A stretch of 64,000 nt of DNA, from positions 310,001 to 374,000 of the forward strand of contig NZ_CP045119.1 in NCBI RefSeq assembly GCF_011492945.1, given 5' to 3'. The notes beneath the pieces are model-generated. The model worked only from the letters and a program-made list of their open reading frames with translations, was not told the DNA's origin and did no database searches. Both the position numbers and the translations under genes were made by a program. Shown piece after piece: positions 28,986-41,952 of this stretch. The DNA is from Rubrobacter tropicus (GTDB lineage Bacteria > Actinomycetota > Rubrobacteria > Rubrobacterales > Rubrobacteraceae). Numbering within the stretch: the stretch's first letter is position 1; every line of letters starts with the position of its first letter.

Positions 28986-31900
28986 TTAGCTAGCGCCCTT
29001 CGACAGCTCCTGTTCGAGCGCCGCGCGGACGCGCTCGTACTCTGCCTCTAGTCGAGAAAGCAGGCTCGGAGCGGCCGAAACGTCATTAGAACGGCCCATC
29101 CCCTCGAGCTCTCCGCAAATAGCCTCCATCGCCACGGCCCCCATGTTCGCGCAGCTTCCTCTCAGGGTGTGCGCGACCCGCTCGACGGGGCGGGCATCCC
29201 CGGCTTCCACGGCGTCTCGCAGGGCCACGAGCTGCGGCGCTACGCTGGCCAGGAACAACTCGGTCAGTTCGCCGAGGATGTCTGGCTCGCCCTCCACCTG
29301 CAGCTCTCGCAGGCCCGCGAGTACGCCCCGGTCCAACGGACCTTGCTCCGAGTCCTTCCCGGCAGAGGCGTCATCAACCGCGGCGGCCTCGACTCCCGGG
29401 TCTCCTTCCTCGGGGACCCACCGTTCAAGTACCTTCAGGAGTTCCTCGGATTTCACAGGCTTCGGGACGTAGTCGTCCATACCGGAGGCCAGCGCCTTCT
29501 CCTTGTCGCCTTGCATCGCGTTCGCGGTCATGGCGATGATGGAAGTGTGACGACCGACGCTCTCTCGGCTCCGGATCTCGGCGGTCGCCTCGTAGCCGTC
29601 CATCTCCGGCATCTGCACGTCCATAAGCACGGCCGCGTATGAACGGCGGGAGAGCGCTTCGAGCGCTTCCAGACCGTTCGCGACCACGTCGGTCTTGTAG
29701 CCCAGCTTCTCGAGCATCCTTACCGCGACCTTCTGGTTCACCGGGTTGTCCTCCGCGACGAGCACGTGGGCCCGCCAGGGCCGTCCGAGGGAACGGAGAT
29801 TCGCATCGTCTGATCGGGCGGCGATGGACGCTTTGTGCGGCGGGGCCGAAGTCGTGTCCGCTGGGCGGCCCATCGCCGTTGCGATGGCGTCGTAGAGCTT
29901 GGACTGCCTCGCCGGCTTTGCGAGGTAGGCCGAGAAGCCCGCATCTAAGGCCTGCTCCGCTACGCCACGCAAGTTGACAGAAGTGAGTAGTATGAGTCGG
30001 GTGGAGGCTATCGCTGGATCGGCCTTTATCGTGCGGGCGAGCTCTATGCCGTCCATGCCCGGCATGGCCAGGTCGAGGACCGCCAGTTCGTAAGGCTCGT
30101 TCCGCCGTGCGGCGTCTCTCAGGATCGTTAGGGCGCTCGGGCCGTCTTCGGCCGCACCGTTCTTCATGTCCCAAGAGACGACTTGCTGGTGCACTACTCT
30201 GCGGTTGGTCTCGTTGTCGTCGACGACCAGGATCTTTAGGCCGCCCAGATCAGCGTATCGATTCCGAACGGTCCGGGCGCCGAGCGGCGACCTTTCCAGG
30301 TGCGCGGTGAACCAGAAGGTGCTCCCCCTGCCCGGTTGGCTCTCCACCCCGATCTCTCCCCCCATAAGCTCCACCAGCTGCCTGGAGATGGCGAGGCCGA
30401 GGCCCGTGCCGCCGAAGCGGCGCGTCGTGGAGGCGTCCGCCTGGGTGAAAGGCTGGAACAGGCGCGCTTGCTGCTCTTCGCTCATCCCTATGCCCGTGTC
30501 CTCTACCTCGAATCGGGCCGTCACCGTTCGGGAGGTTTCCTCGGCCATCTCGACGCGCAGGATCACCTCTCCCCGCTCGGTGAACTTTATGGCGTTGCCG
30601 ATCAGGTTGATCAAAACCTGCCTCAGGCGTCCGGGGTCGCCCCTGAGGGCCGTCGGCATCCCGGGGTCGACCAGGCTCGCCAGTTCCAGGCCCTTGGCGT
30701 GAGCCCGCTCGGCGAGCAAGCTCATTGTCTCCCCGACCGTGGCCTCCAGGTCGAAGTCGAGCTTCTCGAAGTCCATGCTCCCGGCCTCGATCTTGGAGAA
30801 GTCCAGGATGTCGTTGATGATGACCAGCAGGTTCTCGGTCGACGCCCTCACCGTCTCGGTGTACTCGCGCTGCTCCGCGTCGAGCGGCGTGTCCAGGAGG
30901 AGCTCGGTCATGCCTATGACGCCGTTCATGGGGGTGCGAATCTCGTGGGACATGTTCGCCAGAAACTCGCTCTTGGCCTTGTTGGCCGCCTCGGCCTCGT
31001 TTCTGGCCACCTTCAGCTCGTCGATGACGGCTTCTAGCTGCGAGGTACGTTCCTCGACCCGTTCTTCGAGTCCCTCGTTGAGGTGGCGGATCTCCGCCGC
31101 GGCCCGCTCGTTGTTGCGCATGAGGCCCATCATGCGGAACAGCACCAGCAAAAAAAGCACGACCGAGCCCCCCGCGATCACGGGCACGCTCAGCGGCGCC
31201 CCCCGCGCCGCCTGGACCGCGAGCAGCCCGGGGGCCGTCAGGGAGGCCGCCGCGAGTAGCGCGAGGCGTCGACGCGTGAGCCTGGTCTCGGGATCCGGCG
31301 CGACGCCGTCGGAGAGATCCACCATCGACGGGTGCAACGCGGCGGTACCCAGAAAAACCAGGAAGAGCATCTCGAGGGCGTCGACCGGGGTTCCGGTTTC
31401 GTAGGTGCCCGCCAGCGTCGACACGGTGTAGGCGGCGTCGAAAGCCAGCGTGCACGACACACCCGCGACCAGCGGGTAGTAGGCGAACGGGCGTTCGCCG
31501 GAGACGAGCAACATCCGCACCACGAAGGCGAGCAGCAGAACGTCCATGAGCGGGTAGGTCACGGAGACGAGTTGCTCGAGCCGGGTGAGCGACTGGTCCT
31601 CGAAGAACGGCCGCATCAAGAAGACCCACGCGATAACCCCCACGCCCACGGCGACGATTATGGGATCGATGACGCTGGCCCTGTCGCGAACGAACCTGCG
31701 CTGCTGGAAAAGCAGCAGGGCGCCGGCCGCGCAAGGGTAGCTGGCGATGAGCAACGCGTCGGCCAGGGAAGGAAACGGGGTCCTCCCCAGGGTGACCTCG
31801 TAGTAGACGAACGTCACGATGCCGAGGACGAAGAACAGCGTGCCGAGGGTGAAGAGGTACCAGGGCAGCGGACGCTTCGGCCGGTGCATGAGGATGCCGG

Positions 31901-32063
31901 CCACGAACGCCCCCAGCGCCGCCAGGTTGAAGAGCGGGCGGAGGGTGTCCTGCGCGGCCGGTGACGGGAGGAAAAAGTACGCGACCGTCGCGAGAGCGCC
32001 CACGATCAGGTAGACGAGCCACGCCCGCGACCGCCCCCCCTCACTCTTCCACGCGCTGATCAT
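28986..32063 (-). CDS. Membrane-bound hybrid sensor histidine kinase with two receiver domains and HPt
   Basis: About 1025 residues. Roughly nine membrane helices form an integral sensor (to ~330), then a coiled coil leads to the HisKA domain with H373 in [10 protein letters not shown]. The ATPase has [16 protein letters not shown] and G-G-T-G-L-G-L-A-I. Two receivers follow with phospho-aspartates D664 and D815, and an HPt domain has H965 in V-A-H-T-L-R-G-S. This is a complete BarA/TorS-like phosphorelay in one chain; the final response regulator is elsewhere. The ATG at 32063 is chosen from where the first helix begins; the frame is open to 32276 and the ribosome site is weak. Confidence 0.9.
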
Positions 32064-32457
32064 GCTTGAGTCGGGCGCCCTTCGGCTCCGAGAAAGAAGG
32101 ACGGCATAGACTCTATCTCTCCTTCGGCGGCCCGGCTGCCTCCCCGTGAGTGAGGTCCGTGGCTTTGTGCCCCCGCCTCGCGGCGGGTTTACCTTTTCCA
32201 GGACGCCCGACATTGTACATCGTGGCCGGGGGTCGCGCCGTGCGACACGCGGGTGTTTGTGGCGACATGGGGTCATGGTACGCCAAGTAGCTTGGTTCGC
32301 ACGGTAAGTGGCCGGTTACGTGAACGCGGCAAGCATCCTCCCGAAAGGCTCGTGCTATTCTTCATGCGAAAGGCCGCGCGTGCGGGAAGCGGGGGCCGCT
32401 TGCTGTACGCCGCGGCAGCGCTCGCGTGACGCGGACAAACTATCCTGGAGGGGGAAC
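32064..32457. promoter_or_regulatory. Divergent regulatory gap between sensor kinase and FAAL fusion
   Basis: A 394-base region. On the minus strand TACAAT (32217-32212) is a plausible -10 for the kinase and would give a ~140-base leader. On the plus strand TATTCT (near 32356) and TATCCT (near 32438) are candidate -10 boxes for the FAAL gene, without convincing -35 boxes. No gene is apparent. Confidence 0.35.
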
Positions 32458-35400
32458 ATGGTGCTGCACAAAGGCGGCCGTCAAGAGGTGCCCGACGACC
32501 TCCGCCCGCCCTTTCCCGACGACGAGGTCGAGCCCGACACCCTGATAGATCTGCTCGTGCACAGGGCGTCGCACCAGGCCAGGGACCAAGCTTTCATGTT
32601 CCTGGAGGATGGGGAATCCGCGGGGGACTTCGTGGATTACGCGGGTTTGGACGGGCGGGCCCGGGACGTGGCCGCGAGGCTGCAAGCTCTGGGGGTCGAG
32701 ACCGGGGAGCGTGTCCTCCTGTTCTACCCCCCTGGCCTTGACTACGCCGCCGCGTTCCTCGGTTGCCTGTACGCCGGGGTGGTGGCCGTGCCCGCCTACC
32801 CGCCGCGGCTCAACCGCCCCATATCCAGGCTGCGCTCCATCGCCACGGACTCGGGCGCGACCGTGGCGCTTGCCCCCTCTCCCGTCCTGTCCAACCTGGA
32901 GAAGCGGCTCGCGCACGCCCCGGAGATGAGGTCGCTGCGTTGGCTGTCCACCGACGACGGCGAAGACCGGGCCGAAGCGTGGCGCCGGCCCGAGGTGGAC
33001 GCCGATACGCTTGCTTTTCTGCAGTACACGTCGGGTTCTACTTCCTCGCCCAAAGGAGTAATGGTCACCCACGGCAACCTGCTGCACAACCTGGCCCTGA
33101 TCTACCACGGTTTCGGGCACTCGGCGGGCAGCCACATGGTGAGTTGGCTGCCCCCCTACCACGATATGGGGCTGATCGTCGGGATACTGCAGCCGCTCTA
33201 CGGGGGCTTCCCGGCCACCCTCATGCCGCCCGCCTCCTTTATGCAGCGACCCCTTGGCTGGCTGCGGGCCATCTCCCGTACGGGGGCCGACAGCGCCGGC
33301 GCGCCCAACTTTGCCTACGACCTCTGCGCCCGTGTGATCACCCCCGAAGAGCGGGCGACCCTGGACCTCAGCGGCTGGAAGTTGGCCTTCAGCGGGGCCG
33401 AGCCCATCCGGCGGGAGACCCTGGAGCGGTTCGCGGAGGCCTTCGCGCCCTGCGGTTTTCGATGGGAGGCGTTCTACCCGGCCTACGGCCTCGCGGAGGC
33501 GACCGTGTTCGTGTCGGGGGGAAGGAGGCAAGATCCGCCCGTGGTGCTCCCCCTCGAAGGGGCTGAGCTCGAGCGGGATCGGGTGGCCGTCGCCGCGTCG
33601 GATGGAGGCCAGCGTTCGATCGTGGGCTGCGGGCGCGCTCCGGCCGACCAGGAGATCGTCGTGGTCGATCCCAAAACCCTGACCGTCTGCCCGCCCGACC
33701 GCGTGGGAGAGGTGTGGGTGTCGGGTCCCAGCGTCGCCCAAGGGTACTGGGGGCGGCCCGAGGAGACGAAGGACACGTTCGGGGCTTACCTGGCGGATAC
33801 GGGCGAAGGGACCTTCTTGCGGACCGGCGACCTGGGGTTCTTGCACCACGGGGAGCTCTTCATCACGGGGCGGCTCAACGACCTCATCATCGTCCGTGGA
33901 CGCAACCACTACCCGCAAGACATAGAGCTTACGGCGGAGCAGAGCCACGCGGCCCTCCGTCCGGACTGCAGCGCCGCTTTCTCCGTGGACATCGACGGGG
34001 ACGAGCGCCTGGTGATCGTCCACGAGCTGGAACGCAGCCACGTGAAGAACGTGGATGCCGACGAGGTGGCCGCGGCCGTGCGCAGCGCGGTGGCGGATCT
34101 TCACGAGTTGGAGGCCCACACCATCGTCCTGGTCAGGACCGGGAGCATACCCAAAACATCCAGCGGCAAGATCCAGCGCCGCGCGACCCGGGCCGCCTAC
34201 CTGGAAGGCTCCCTGCCCGTCGTGGCCACAGACGAACTGTCTGACGACGCGGGTCGGCAAGACACCGAAGAGGAGGGAGATCCGGTCGCGCCCGAGGTTG
34301 CCGGCGAAGCAGATCGCGTACTGGACACGGTCGGCGATTTCGTCCGACGAAGGGGACGAACGGAGCCCGTGCGGCCCTCCGACTCCCTGCGGGGGGATCT
34401 GGGGCTCGACTCGCTGGCGATAGCAGAGATGCTTATGGACTTGGAGTCCGCCTTCGAGGTGCGGATGGGCGATTCGGTTATCGCCGACTCGCGAACGGCG
34501 GAAGACGTAGTCGGCGAGGTGCTCAGGGCCCGCCAGACGGACGCGGGGGGGCCGTCGGAGAGCGACGGGATCGCCGGGCTGCAGGAACGAATATTCCGCC
34601 AGATCCCCCAACTCGGCGCGGTCGTGAACGAGCAGGACGGTCGGAGCGTCAAGATCGGGGGGCGGTGGTGCGCTGATTTCGCGTCCGCGAACTACCTGGG
34701 TCTGGACCTGCACCCGGAGGTTCTGGCTGCGATCCCCGATGCGATAAGACGCTGGGGCGTGCACCCGAGTTGGACGCGGGCCGTGGCCTCACCGCAGATC
34801 TACGACGACCTGGAGCGGGAGCTCGCCGACTTCGTCGGTGTCCCGGACGTACTGGTGTTCCCGACGATCACCCTCCTACACAGCGGCGTCTTGCCCGTCC
34901 TTGCGGGCGCGGACGGCCTCATTCTCCTGGACCGGGCCGTGCACACCTCCATGCAGGAGGCGGCCTACCTCGCCAAAGCCCGGGGCACGGCCGTGGACTG
35001 GTTTGACCATAACGACCCCCAGGACCTCGAACGGGTGCTGGAACTCCACCGAGGGCGGCCACGAAAGATAATAGCCGTGGACGGTGTCTACTCGATGTCC
35101 GGTGCGTATCCCCCCCTGCCGGAGTTCGCGAGGCTGGCACGCAAGCACGAAGCCAGGGTGTACGTGGATGATGCCCACGGTATCGGCGTGGTTGGCGAAA
35201 ACCCCACGCCTGACAACCCGTACGGGGATTGGGGCAACGGCATCGTCCGCCACCTCGGTCTGCGCTACGGCAGGGAGATAGTCTACGTCGGCGGCATGTC
35301 GAAGGCGTTCTCTTCGATGGCCGCTTTCGTCAGCTGCTCGGACGAGGACGAGAAGCGTCGTCTGGCCATGGCCTCGACGGCGGTCTTCTCCGGGCCTTGT

Positions 35401-35805
35401 CCCACGGCGAGCCTGGCGAGCGCCCTTGCGGGCCTCAAGATCTCGCGGAGGGATGAGGGATCCGCCATACGCCGTCGCCTGTTGCGCCTTACCAGAGATC
35501 TGGTCGACGGGGCTCGCGCGCTGGGCTTCGCCGTCGACAACAACGAAAGGTTTCCGCTCGTCGGCGTGAGGATCGGCGACGTGGACGCCGTCATCAGAGC
35601 CTGCAACGTCCTGTGGGACCACGGTATCCTCTTGACGCCCGCCTTGTACCCCGCGGTGCCCATGGACCGCGGCGCACTGCGCTTCACGGTCACCGCAGCC
35701 AACACTGAAGAGCAGGTCCAGCGGGCGATCGAAGGTCTGCGGAGGGTTCGCGAAGAGGTATTCCCGCACGGGCATCCTTCAGCGCTCGCCGCGTCGGCGG
35801 AGTAA
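32458..35805 (+). CDS. Fatty acyl-AMP ligase - acyl carrier protein - alpha-oxoamine synthase fusion
   Basis: An 1115-residue three-domain enzyme. Residues ~20-600 are an FAAL adenylation domain (Y190-T-S-G-S-T-S-S-P-K-G-V; W-E-A-F-Y-P-A-Y-G-L-A-E-A-T typical of FAALs). Residues ~615-695 are an ACP with phosphopantetheine serine S652 in G-L-D-S-L. Residues ~705-1105 are a PLP-dependent alpha-oxoamine synthase (D-D-A-H-G-I-G-V; PLP lysine K949 in M-S-K-A-F). Together they should activate a fatty acid, load it on the built-in ACP and condense it with an amino acid with loss of CO2, giving a long-chain alpha-aminoketone such as 3-ketosphinganine. ATG 32458 follows GGAGGGGG. No tailoring genes adjoin. 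Confidence 0.9.
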   Translation: MVLHKGGRQEVPDDLRPPFPDDEVEPDTLIDLLVHRASHQARDQAFMFLEDGESAGDFVDYAGLDGRARDVAARLQALGVETGERVLLFYPPGLDYAAAFLGCLYAGVVAVPAYPPRLNRPISRLRSIATDSGATVALAPSPVLSNLEKRLAHAPEMRSLRWLSTDDGEDRAEAWRRPEVDADTLAFLQYTSGSTSSPKGVMVTHGNLLHNLALIYHGFGHSAGSHMVSWLPPYHDMGLIVGILQPLYGGFPATLMPPASFMQRPLGWLRAISRTGADSAGAPNFAYDLCARVITPEERATLDLSGWKLAFSGAEPIRRETLERFAEAFAPCGFRWEAFYPAYGLAEATVFVSGGRRQDPPVVLPLEGAELERDRVAVAASDGGQRSIVGCGRAPADQEIVVVDPKTLTVCPPDRVGEVWVSGPSVAQGYWGRPEETKDTFGAYLADTGEGTFLRTGDLGFLHHGELFITGRLNDLIIVRGRNHYPQDIELTAEQSHAALRPDCSAAFSVDIDGDERLVIVHELERSHVKNVDADEVAAAVRSAVADLHELEAHTIVLVRTGSIPKTSSGKIQRRATRAAYLEGSLPVVATDELSDDAGRQDTEEEGDPVAPEVAGEADRVLDTVGDFVRRRGRTEPVRPSDSLRGDLGLDSLAIAEMLMDLESAFEVRMGDSVIADSRTAEDVVGEVLRARQTDAGGPSESDGIAGLQERIFRQIPQLGAVVNEQDGRSVKIGGRWCADFASANYLGLDLHPEVLAAIPDAIRRWGVHPSWTRAVASPQIYDDLERELADFVGVPDVLVFPTITLLHSGVLPVLAGADGLILLDRAVHTSMQEAAYLAKARGTAVDWFDHNDPQDLERVLELHRGRPRKIIAVDGVYSMSGAYPPLPEFARLARKHEARVYVDDAHGIGVVGENPTPDNPYGDWGNGIVRHLGLRYGREIVYVGGMSKAFSSMAAFVSCSDEDEKRRLAMASTAVFSGPCPTASLASALAGLKISRRDEGSAIRRRLLRLTRDLVDGARALGFAVDNNERFPLVGVRIGDVDAVIRACNVLWDHGILLTPALYPAVPMDRGALRFTVTAANTEEQVQRAIEGLRRVREEVFPHGHPSALAASAE

Positions 35806-40112: not shown

Positions 40113-40568
40113 CTACCGCGCGCCCCTGGTGGTCTGGTCGTCTATCTCGACCTCTTCCTTGCGGAGGTCCACCTCGACGACCTCCTCTTCCTCGACCACC
40201 CTCTTGCGCAGCCGGATCTCCTCTTTCAGCACGACCCGCTTGGTGACCACCACCTCCTCCTCGAAGACCTGCACGACGACCTCTTCGTCGCCGAACTCGA
40301 ACTCGGCCCCCGAAACCTCCCTGTCCATCTGCACCCGCTCGACGTCGACCTGCTCGCGCCTCTTGGGTACCCGCACCTCCTCGCGCTCGGTGTGCACGCT
40401 CTTCTTGACGTTCACGGAGCCGGCCTCGCGCTGGCGGACGCCGGCGCGGAGCTCCTCCTCGGAGCGTTGAACTCTTAGATCTTCGTGCTCCGTACCACCG
40501 CGCTCGTCCGCCGTCGTACCCTCGGGAACGTCCCCCGGCGGCCGTTCGTCGCGCTCTTCATTGATCAA
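40113..40568 (-). CDS. DUF2382 (YsnF/AvaK-type) stress protein, single domain
   Basis: A 151-residue, highly charged protein with the DUF2382 repeat pattern (L-R-V-Q-R-S-E-E-E-L-R-A-G, then alternating E/V/R strands to the end). It starts at TTG 40568 behind GAGGAGG. YsnF-type proteins belong to general stress regulons in other bacteria. It shares its motif order with the longer protein upstream. Confidence 0.85.
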   Translation of the reverse strand: MINEERDERPPGDVPEGTTADERGGTEHEDLRVQRSEEELRAGVRQREAGSVNVKKSVHTEREEVRVPKRREQVDVERVQMDREVSGAEFEFGDEEVVVQVFEEEVVVTKRVVLKEEIRLRKRVVEEEEVVEVDLRKEEVEIDDQTTRGAR

Positions 40569-40654: not shown

Positions 40655-41569
40655 TTACCTGTCGAGGCCGCTGCCCCGCTCGGTGGCGTCTTCGACGTCG
40701 ATCTCCTCGCGGCGGACGTCGTCCTCGACGACCTCGGTGTCCTCCACCACGTCCTTGCGCAAGCGCACCTCCTCCTTGGCCACGGCCCGCTTGTCGGTGA
40801 CGACCTCCTCCTCGGTCACCGGCACCGAGACCTCCTCCTCGCCGATCTGGGCCTCGGTCGCCTCGCCGGAGACGGGCACCCGCTCGACGCTGACCTCCTC
40901 GTGCTTGACCGGGACCTCGATGCGCTCGCGGTCGGTGCGCACGCGCTTGCGGACCCTCATGGCGCCCGCCTCGCGCTCGCGGGTGCCCGCCCGGAGCTCT
41001 TCTTCGGAGCGCTGCACCCTCAGCTCGTCGCGGTCCTCGAGGTCGTCGCCGCGGCTCTGGTTGACGCCCTCGTCGTTCGAGTCGTGCTCGCGGAACTCGC
41101 CGGTCTCGGTGTCGCCCATGCTCATGCCCGCGCCCACGGTGCCGGCCGAGGTCGAGCCGGTCGTGCCGGCGCCGGAGTGCTCCGCGCCCTCGTCGCCGTA
41201 GTACTCGCCGTAGGAGCCGCGGTCGTCGGTGCCCGTGGCGGCGCCGAGGCCGTAGTAGGAGCGGATCTCGCCCTCGTACTCGGGGGTGATCTCCCGGTCG
41301 TCGTCGAAGGAGGGGCCGTTCTTGACGGTGTCCTTGTCAGAGGAGACGGTGATCGTGCTGTTCGCCTCGTCGGTGGTGGCCATGTCGGCCGGGATCAGCG
41401 TGGAGCTGGTGCCCAGAAAGCCCATCTTCACGCCGAAGTACTCGGGCTGGTCGTTCTCGTCGAGGAACAGGTCGTCGACCTTGCCGATCTTGCTCCCGGA
41501 GTTGTCGTAGACGGTGTAGCCCGCGTACCTGTCCTCTATCGCCGTGAAACCGTCGCTGCGATTCTCCAT
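40655..41569 (-). CDS. PRC-barrel + DUF2382 stress protein
   Basis: A 304-residue protein. A PRC-barrel lies at about 8-85 (G-Y-T-V-Y-D-N-S-G-S-K-I-G-K-V-D-D-L-F-L), a low-complexity acidic/Gly linker follows, and a DUF2382 domain fills ~185-300. The ATG at 41569 is preceded by GGAGGC; the longer frame to 41740 is not credible. It is the first gene of the minus-strand cluster and diverges from the HTH-MEDS regulator. Confidence 0.87.
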   Translation of the reverse strand: MENRSDGFTAIEDRYAGYTVYDNSGSKIGKVDDLFLDENDQPEYFGVKMGFLGTSSTLIPADMATTDEANSTITVSSDKDTVKNGPSFDDDREITPEYEGEIRSYYGLGAATGTDDRGSYGEYYGDEGAEHSGAGTTGSTSAGTVGAGMSMGDTETGEFREHDSNDEGVNQSRGDDLEDRDELRVQRSEEELRAGTREREAGAMRVRKRVRTDRERIEVPVKHEEVSVERVPVSGEATEAQIGEEEVSVPVTEEEVVTDKRAVAKEEVRLRKDVVEDTEVVEDDVRREEIDVEDATERGSGLDR

Positions 41570-41952
41570 TGCTCTGCCTCCTTCGTAGGATTTCGGCCTC
41601 GTACTTTTGTCGAAGCCTGACCTTGCGTACTTGTCCCGCCAATGGTGTCCGGGATTACTTCGACCTCTACCCCTCGAAACGTTCACGCAAAAGCGATTTC
41701 GCGCCCAACTCAAATAAATGGACCGAAAGGTGCAGGCCACCCGTCCGAAAACACTCCCGGTGCTACACGCCAGAGTTTTGCCTTCGCACCTCCTTTTTCC
41801 GTCTCACAACGCGCTCGACACTGTGCTGTCCGGTATCGTTACGCCCAAAGGTTTACATTCAAGTAGTGTAAAGTCAAGTAAAGTCCATAAAAGTACAATA
41901 AAGAAACTGCTATGATCTGTCTCCGGGTAGGCAGAGAGAAGGTTGGGAAGAC
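41570..41952. promoter_or_regulatory. Divergent regulatory region with five phased 10-bp direct repeats
   Basis: Within this 383-base gap, AAGT recurs exactly every ten bases at 41861, 41871, 41881 and 41891, with AAGA at 41901; several units end in TA. They lead straight into TATGAT (41911-41916), a good -10 for the HTH-MEDS gene, and cover the place of a -35 box, where no consensus is seen. The area is AT-rich against a GC-rich background. One-helical-turn spacing fits head-to-tail binding by a BldC/MerR-like protein. No clear promoter is visible for the divergent stress genes. Confidence 0.65.

Follow-up and report, generated by a model that had tools for sequence, protein, structure and literature searches.

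A fused FAAL-ACP-alpha-oxoamine synthase of Rubrobacter tropicus as a candidate signal synthase beside a membrane sensor and a c-di-GMP riboswitch

What is made by a protein that carries a FAAL adenylation domain, an ACP and an alpha-oxoamine synthase (AOS) in one chain, and which process does its product serve? The gene that raises this question lies at 32458-35805 (+) in the window, the 64,000-nucleotide stretch of the Rubrobacter tropicus genome analysed here, and encodes 1115 amino acids from an ATG start placed just after a ribosome-binding site read from the sequence (GGAGGGGG, 32447-32454, +); the mechanical ORF reaches back to a GTG at 32308. The three domains named in a preliminary description of the locus were confirmed by Pfam, by motifs and by FAAL alignments. 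Pfam matches exceeding the gathering score comprised AMP-binding (residues 37-431, E 6e-68), the DIP2-like AMP C-domain (474-589), PP-binding (621-686, E 7e-8) and Aminotran_1_2 (740-1093, E 2e-31). The FAAL domain (residues 25-600, 32530-34257, +) aligns end to end with solved FAALs, scoring 613 bits to 7r7e and 479 to 3kxw, and retains A3, A5, A7, A8 and A10, with the motifs TSGSTSSPKG, YGLAEAT, RTGDLG, RGRNHYPQDIE and SSGKIQR; full-length alignment and intact motifs together place it among the FAALs. The ACP (residues 621-686, 34318-34515, +) carries its phosphopantetheine serine, Ser652 (34411-34413), within GLDSL. The AOS domain (residues 720-1100, 34615-35757, +) has the PLP lysine, Lys949 (35302-35304), within GGMSKAF, together with a stacking His (DRAVHT), VDDAHG and a carboxylate Arg (ALRFTVTA), the Lys, Asp, His and Arg set of a fold-type I PLP enzyme of the alpha-oxoamine synthase family. 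All motifs checked in the adenylation, phosphopantetheine and PLP parts were intact, and a model of the AOS domain (pLDDT 80) found alpha-oxoamine synthases as its best PDB matches, namely ThAOS (Foldseek 2e-28), BioF and SPT.

The fusion is no assembly artefact, since a congeneric genome holds a full-length copy that is 73 % identical and a third copy exists, interrupted by a contig end. A search of a plasmid collection returned no full-length relative, and a promoter scan at the locus found nothing. FAALs reject CoA and pass the acyl group to holo-ACP (PMC8460268). That the chain may activate, carry and condense a fatty acid without CoA, as previously proposed, is supported by the identity of its domains, by motifs that are all intact and by AasR-AcpR-SPT, a precedent in which the functions are split.

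To place the AOS domain we ran a profile of it (alignment A2) over 396 genomes of the phylum, together with a profile of the neighbouring membrane sensor domain (A1). The AOS hits were sharply set off, with 26 places at ≥ 356 bits and the next best at 217; the 26 places are 25 genes, as G143 contributes two halves of one gene on two contigs. In the tree this clade has support of 100/100 and is separate from BioF, KBL and SPT as well as from the FAAL-ACP-AOS proteins of Planctomycetes and cyanobacteria. SPT membership was rejected at 194, 183 and 130 bits against NCBIfam cut-offs of 640, 500 and 670, CqsA/LqsA membership at 108 bits against the cut-off of 428 for the autoinducer synthase model NF005526, and KBL and ALAS were likewise rejected at their curated cut-offs. 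The domain would work like SPT or CqsA and is a member of neither family. A search for a hidden ACP in the stand-alone members of the clade found no motif.

Divergently encoded from the synthase is a membrane sensor hybrid histidine kinase (28986-32063, -), its likely start being Met72 in the mechanical ORF (28986-32276), a choice based on homologues and on the position of a riboswitch. It comprises a polytopic membrane sensor domain (31068-32039, -), delimited by alignment A1, the survey and hydropathy, followed by HisKA and HATPase_c (30294-30977, -), two receiver domains (29427-30233, -) and an Hpt domain (29019-29270, -). The sensor domain, a candidate receptor for the AOS product, displays about 8-10 hydropathy peaks and falls in no Pfam family at cut-off, with a weak match to MASE5 only; its single-sequence structure model (pLDDT 52) was too poor to use. 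Further along the window, two neighbouring genes (40113-40568 and 40655-41740, -) encode mutually similar, highly charged products rich in Val, Glu and Arg.

The kinase had been described as one of few neighbours and orphan-like, which did not hold once relatives were compared: in an all-against-all comparison it was the N-terminal membrane domain (aa 80-403), rather than the kinase part, that recurred beside AOS homologues in other families. Among the 396 genomes, 24 of the 25 AOS clade genes have a sensor-domain gene, encoding a kinase or a GGDEF-EAL protein, within 5 kb on the same contig (median gap 118 bp), the chance of this in any one genome being about 2 % under a uniform model with generous assumptions; the linkage set spans nine families, members of one family not being independent. 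The single unlinked gene (G010) is 5′-truncated. The two genes may be divergent, on the same strand or fused, and in 12 of the 13 tabulated pairs that share a strand the gap lies between -80 and 114 nt. Sensor and AOS distances are correlated (r 0.57, 14 of 5000 permutations), a relation confounded by species history. About a third of the genomes of the phylum carry the sensor domain, mostly without an AOS of the clade, which indicates that specificity for an AOS-product ligand is not a trait of the domain in general. Taken alone, the linkage would also fit a sensor that detects another cue and either controls the enzyme or acts alongside it.

The part of the sensor proteins that varies is the output. 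The window kinase and that of L126 end in HisKA-HATPase-REC-REC-Hpt, most linked sensors carry PAS-GGDEF-EAL, four (L106, L111, L113 and L121, the last also with a LuxR-type regulator) have PAS-HisKA and one (L107) HisKA_3; the sensor tree requires at least four output switches, with the sensor domain itself kept. In genome G202 (L108, 4465-9372, +) sensor, PAS, GGDEF, EAL and AOS form one frame of 1635 amino acids. This frame is followed by a gene of 247 amino acids with a weak methyltransferase match below the Pfam cut-off. An MFS_3 exporter, 61-72 % identical to the reference copies, is found in 10 linked loci; the window locus has no MFS exporter and its genome only distant relatives of this one. 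A synthase, a candidate exporter and a membrane receptor with exchangeable outputs form the pattern expected of a signal system.

About 59 nt before the likely start codon of the window kinase is a c-di-GMP-I-GGC riboswitch aptamer (32122-32202, -), which Rfam RF03167 matches at 67.9 bits against a gathering score of 59. Such riboswitches also precede the sensor genes of L101, L102 (twice) and L126 (there RF01051), while the sensor genes of other families had no preceding c-di-GMP riboswitch. As kinase and synthase genes diverge in the window, the riboswitch there can act on the kinase only; in L101 and L102 the two genes share a strand and the synthase gene comes directly after that of the sensor, so the riboswitch may control both. 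The aptamers of L102 (5603-5683 and 5946-6026, -) stand in tandem before a sensor-PAS-GGDEF-EAL gene, itself followed by FAAL-ACP-AOS. In a related genus (L103, 593-2486, -) an SDR gene comes after a 5′-truncated AOS gene, and a kinase-type sensor with its riboswitch lies on a separate contig (L126).

We propose, with a probability of roughly 0.6, that the protein acts as a self-loading synthase of a signal, its aminoketone being the ligand of the adjacent candidate receptor in a circuit wired to c-di-GMP. The FAAL domain would adenylate a free fatty acid and hand the acyl group to the ACP in the same chain, on its phosphopantetheine, and the PLP domain would condense acyl-ACP with an amino acid, with release of CO2, to yield a fatty alpha-aminoketone. 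This compound, or a derivative reduced or hydrolysed elsewhere, would then be bound by the divergently encoded polytopic membrane sensor, which in the window would feed the HisKA-REC-REC-Hpt phosphorelay. The proposed wiring to c-di-GMP follows from the sensor of the relatives, which mostly drives GGDEF-EAL, and from the riboswitch before the sensor gene in this genus. The computed basis of this explanation consists of the domains with their intact motifs, the sharply bounded AOS clade, the linkage of that clade to the sensor domain, and the riboswitch; from it we infer substrates, product, binding of the product by the sensor and signalling between cells. An AOS that, across the sampled high-GC bacteria, is encoded nearly always beside a membrane sensor, and once fused to it, is probably the signal maker of an undescribed system tied to c-di-GMP.

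Of the two kinds of lipid product first suggested, the signal-like one is now favoured and the sphingoid base has lost ground, the AOS domain scoring far below the SPT models. Under the latter reading, which we consider unlikely, the aminoketone would be reduced and acylated to a structural lipid and the sensor would serve as a regulator or a sensor of membrane state. It draws on the FAAL/ACP/AOS trio of Rhodobacteria, which makes 3-oxo-sphinganine (PMC9386255), on the occurrence of that trio together with an epimerase in E. coli BL21, and on SDR genes beside AOS in three clade loci (L103, L104, L118) and two cyanobacterial ones (L002, L004). However, besides the SPT scores, no SDR, epimerase or acyltransferase adjoins the synthase in the window, L101 or L102, in line with the original observation that no such reductase or acyltransferase gene lies next to it, and the linked sensors mostly have c-di-GMP or kinase outputs, one of them being fused to the AOS. 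The chances are poorer still for a secondary-metabolite enzyme resembling the PigH-like ACP-AOS proteins, with the aminoketone as building block or end product and the sensor regulating the cluster: the FAAL-ACP part does cluster with FAALs that load NRPS/PKS, nearest to an Acidobacteria FAAL-ACP-condensation protein, but neither the locus nor the linked loci seen contain NRPS, PKS or tailoring genes, a sensor domain is what stays constant beside the AOS, and GGDEF-EAL receptors would make poor cluster-specific regulators. Activation of pimelate by the FAAL and its condensation with alanine, a BioW-ACP-BioF in one chain, is highly improbable: among NCBIfam models the AOS domain does match bioF best (225 bits), and no second BioF-like gene in the genome scores similarly, but the match stays below the cut-off of 426, no bioB over cut-off was found in the genome, and G042 has a separate true BioF (432 bits) in addition to its clade member.

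The one-protein route of the preliminary description calls for a qualification, as FAAL-ACP-AOS fusions of separate origin also occur in Planctomycetes (including Kuenenia bins), cyanobacteria and one Desulfobulbaceae bin. These proteins (L001-L008, L015, L018, L045) share the domain order and 37-42 % overall identity with the window protein, yet their AOS domains are nearer the BioF/SPT models, their FAALs fall in a different group and they have no linked sensor; they are not whole-chain orthologues. A single clade for the AOS domains of all FAAL-ACP-AOS proteins was rejected by the AU test (p 3.6e-6), which rules out one common origin. As the AOS domains, the AU test and the FAAL grouping all point to separate lineages, the fusion arose, on these sequence comparisons, at least twice; an acyl-loading arm was thus joined to an oxoamine synthase more than once. 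The AOS of Limnothrix (L002) may represent a third event. In L002 (9949-15985, +) and L004 (9914-14063, +) the cyanobacterial FAAL-ACP-AOS gene is followed by a common SDR gene (64 % identical), with a second FAAL gene nearby, and a planctomycete FAAL-ACP-AOS gene (L045, 9968-14936) adjoins an NAD-dependent epimerase gene, reminiscent of the epimerase of the E. coli BL21 spt locus.

More broadly, we regard it as marginally better than an even chance that the clade defines a high-GC lipid-signal system independent of Cqs/Lqs, in which dedicated polytopic receptors read the AOS aminoketone and can be joined to different outputs, for the most part c-di-GMP enzymes, with synthase, receptor and effector in one chain as the extreme case, and to which this genus adds a fatty-acid loading arm and riboswitch feedback. 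If true, high-GC Gram-positives would have fatty-aminoketone signalling like that of Vibrio and Legionella, of separate origin and with the receptor coupled directly to c-di-GMP, and about two dozen pairs of synthase and receptor, one of them naturally fused, would be at hand for testing ligand and output. No paper joining FAAL with oxoamine synthase or BioF, and none on actinobacterial AOS signalling, was found in the open-access literature, which is weak evidence of novelty in both cases.

Among known systems, PigH-like proteins of prodigiosin clusters have an ACP fused to an alpha-oxoamine synthase without a FAAL; the window protein shares that fusion and adds the FAAL. The closest counterpart in chemistry is the trio AasR-AcpR-SPT, known from Rhodobacteria and E. 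coli BL21, in which SPT produces 3-oxo-sphinganine together with an acyl-ACP synthetase and its dedicated ACP (PMC9386255), the synthetase being annotated as a fatty acyl-AMP ligase at the E. coli BL21 locus. Both arrangements place a FAAL-type acyl-ACP synthetase, a dedicated ACP and an AOS in series without CoA, but the trio is encoded by three genes and the window protein is one chain, with an AOS that the model scores do not place among the SPTs; the reductase and ceramide genes of the rhodobacterial pathway do not adjoin the window synthase, a comparison that covers the locus only. In organisation the locus resembles CqsA/CqsS of Vibrio, where the aminoketone product of CqsA binds to CqsS, a membrane kinase encoded next to it (PMC3376566), and LqsA/LqsS of Legionella: in each, as in the window, a PLP acyltransferase for a fatty aminoketone, here a predicted one, is encoded beside a polytopic membrane sensor kinase. 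Reports of CqsS-like receptors are confined to Bacteroidetes, Chlorobia and Proteobacteria (PMC4821796). The window AOS belongs to another clade than CqsA and LqsA and is fused to FAAL-ACP in this genus, its sensor, with about 8-10 hydropathy peaks, may differ from the six-transmembrane-helix domain of CqsS and LqsS, and the AOS-linked sensors, unlike those of Cqs and Lqs, mostly have GGDEF-EAL outputs.
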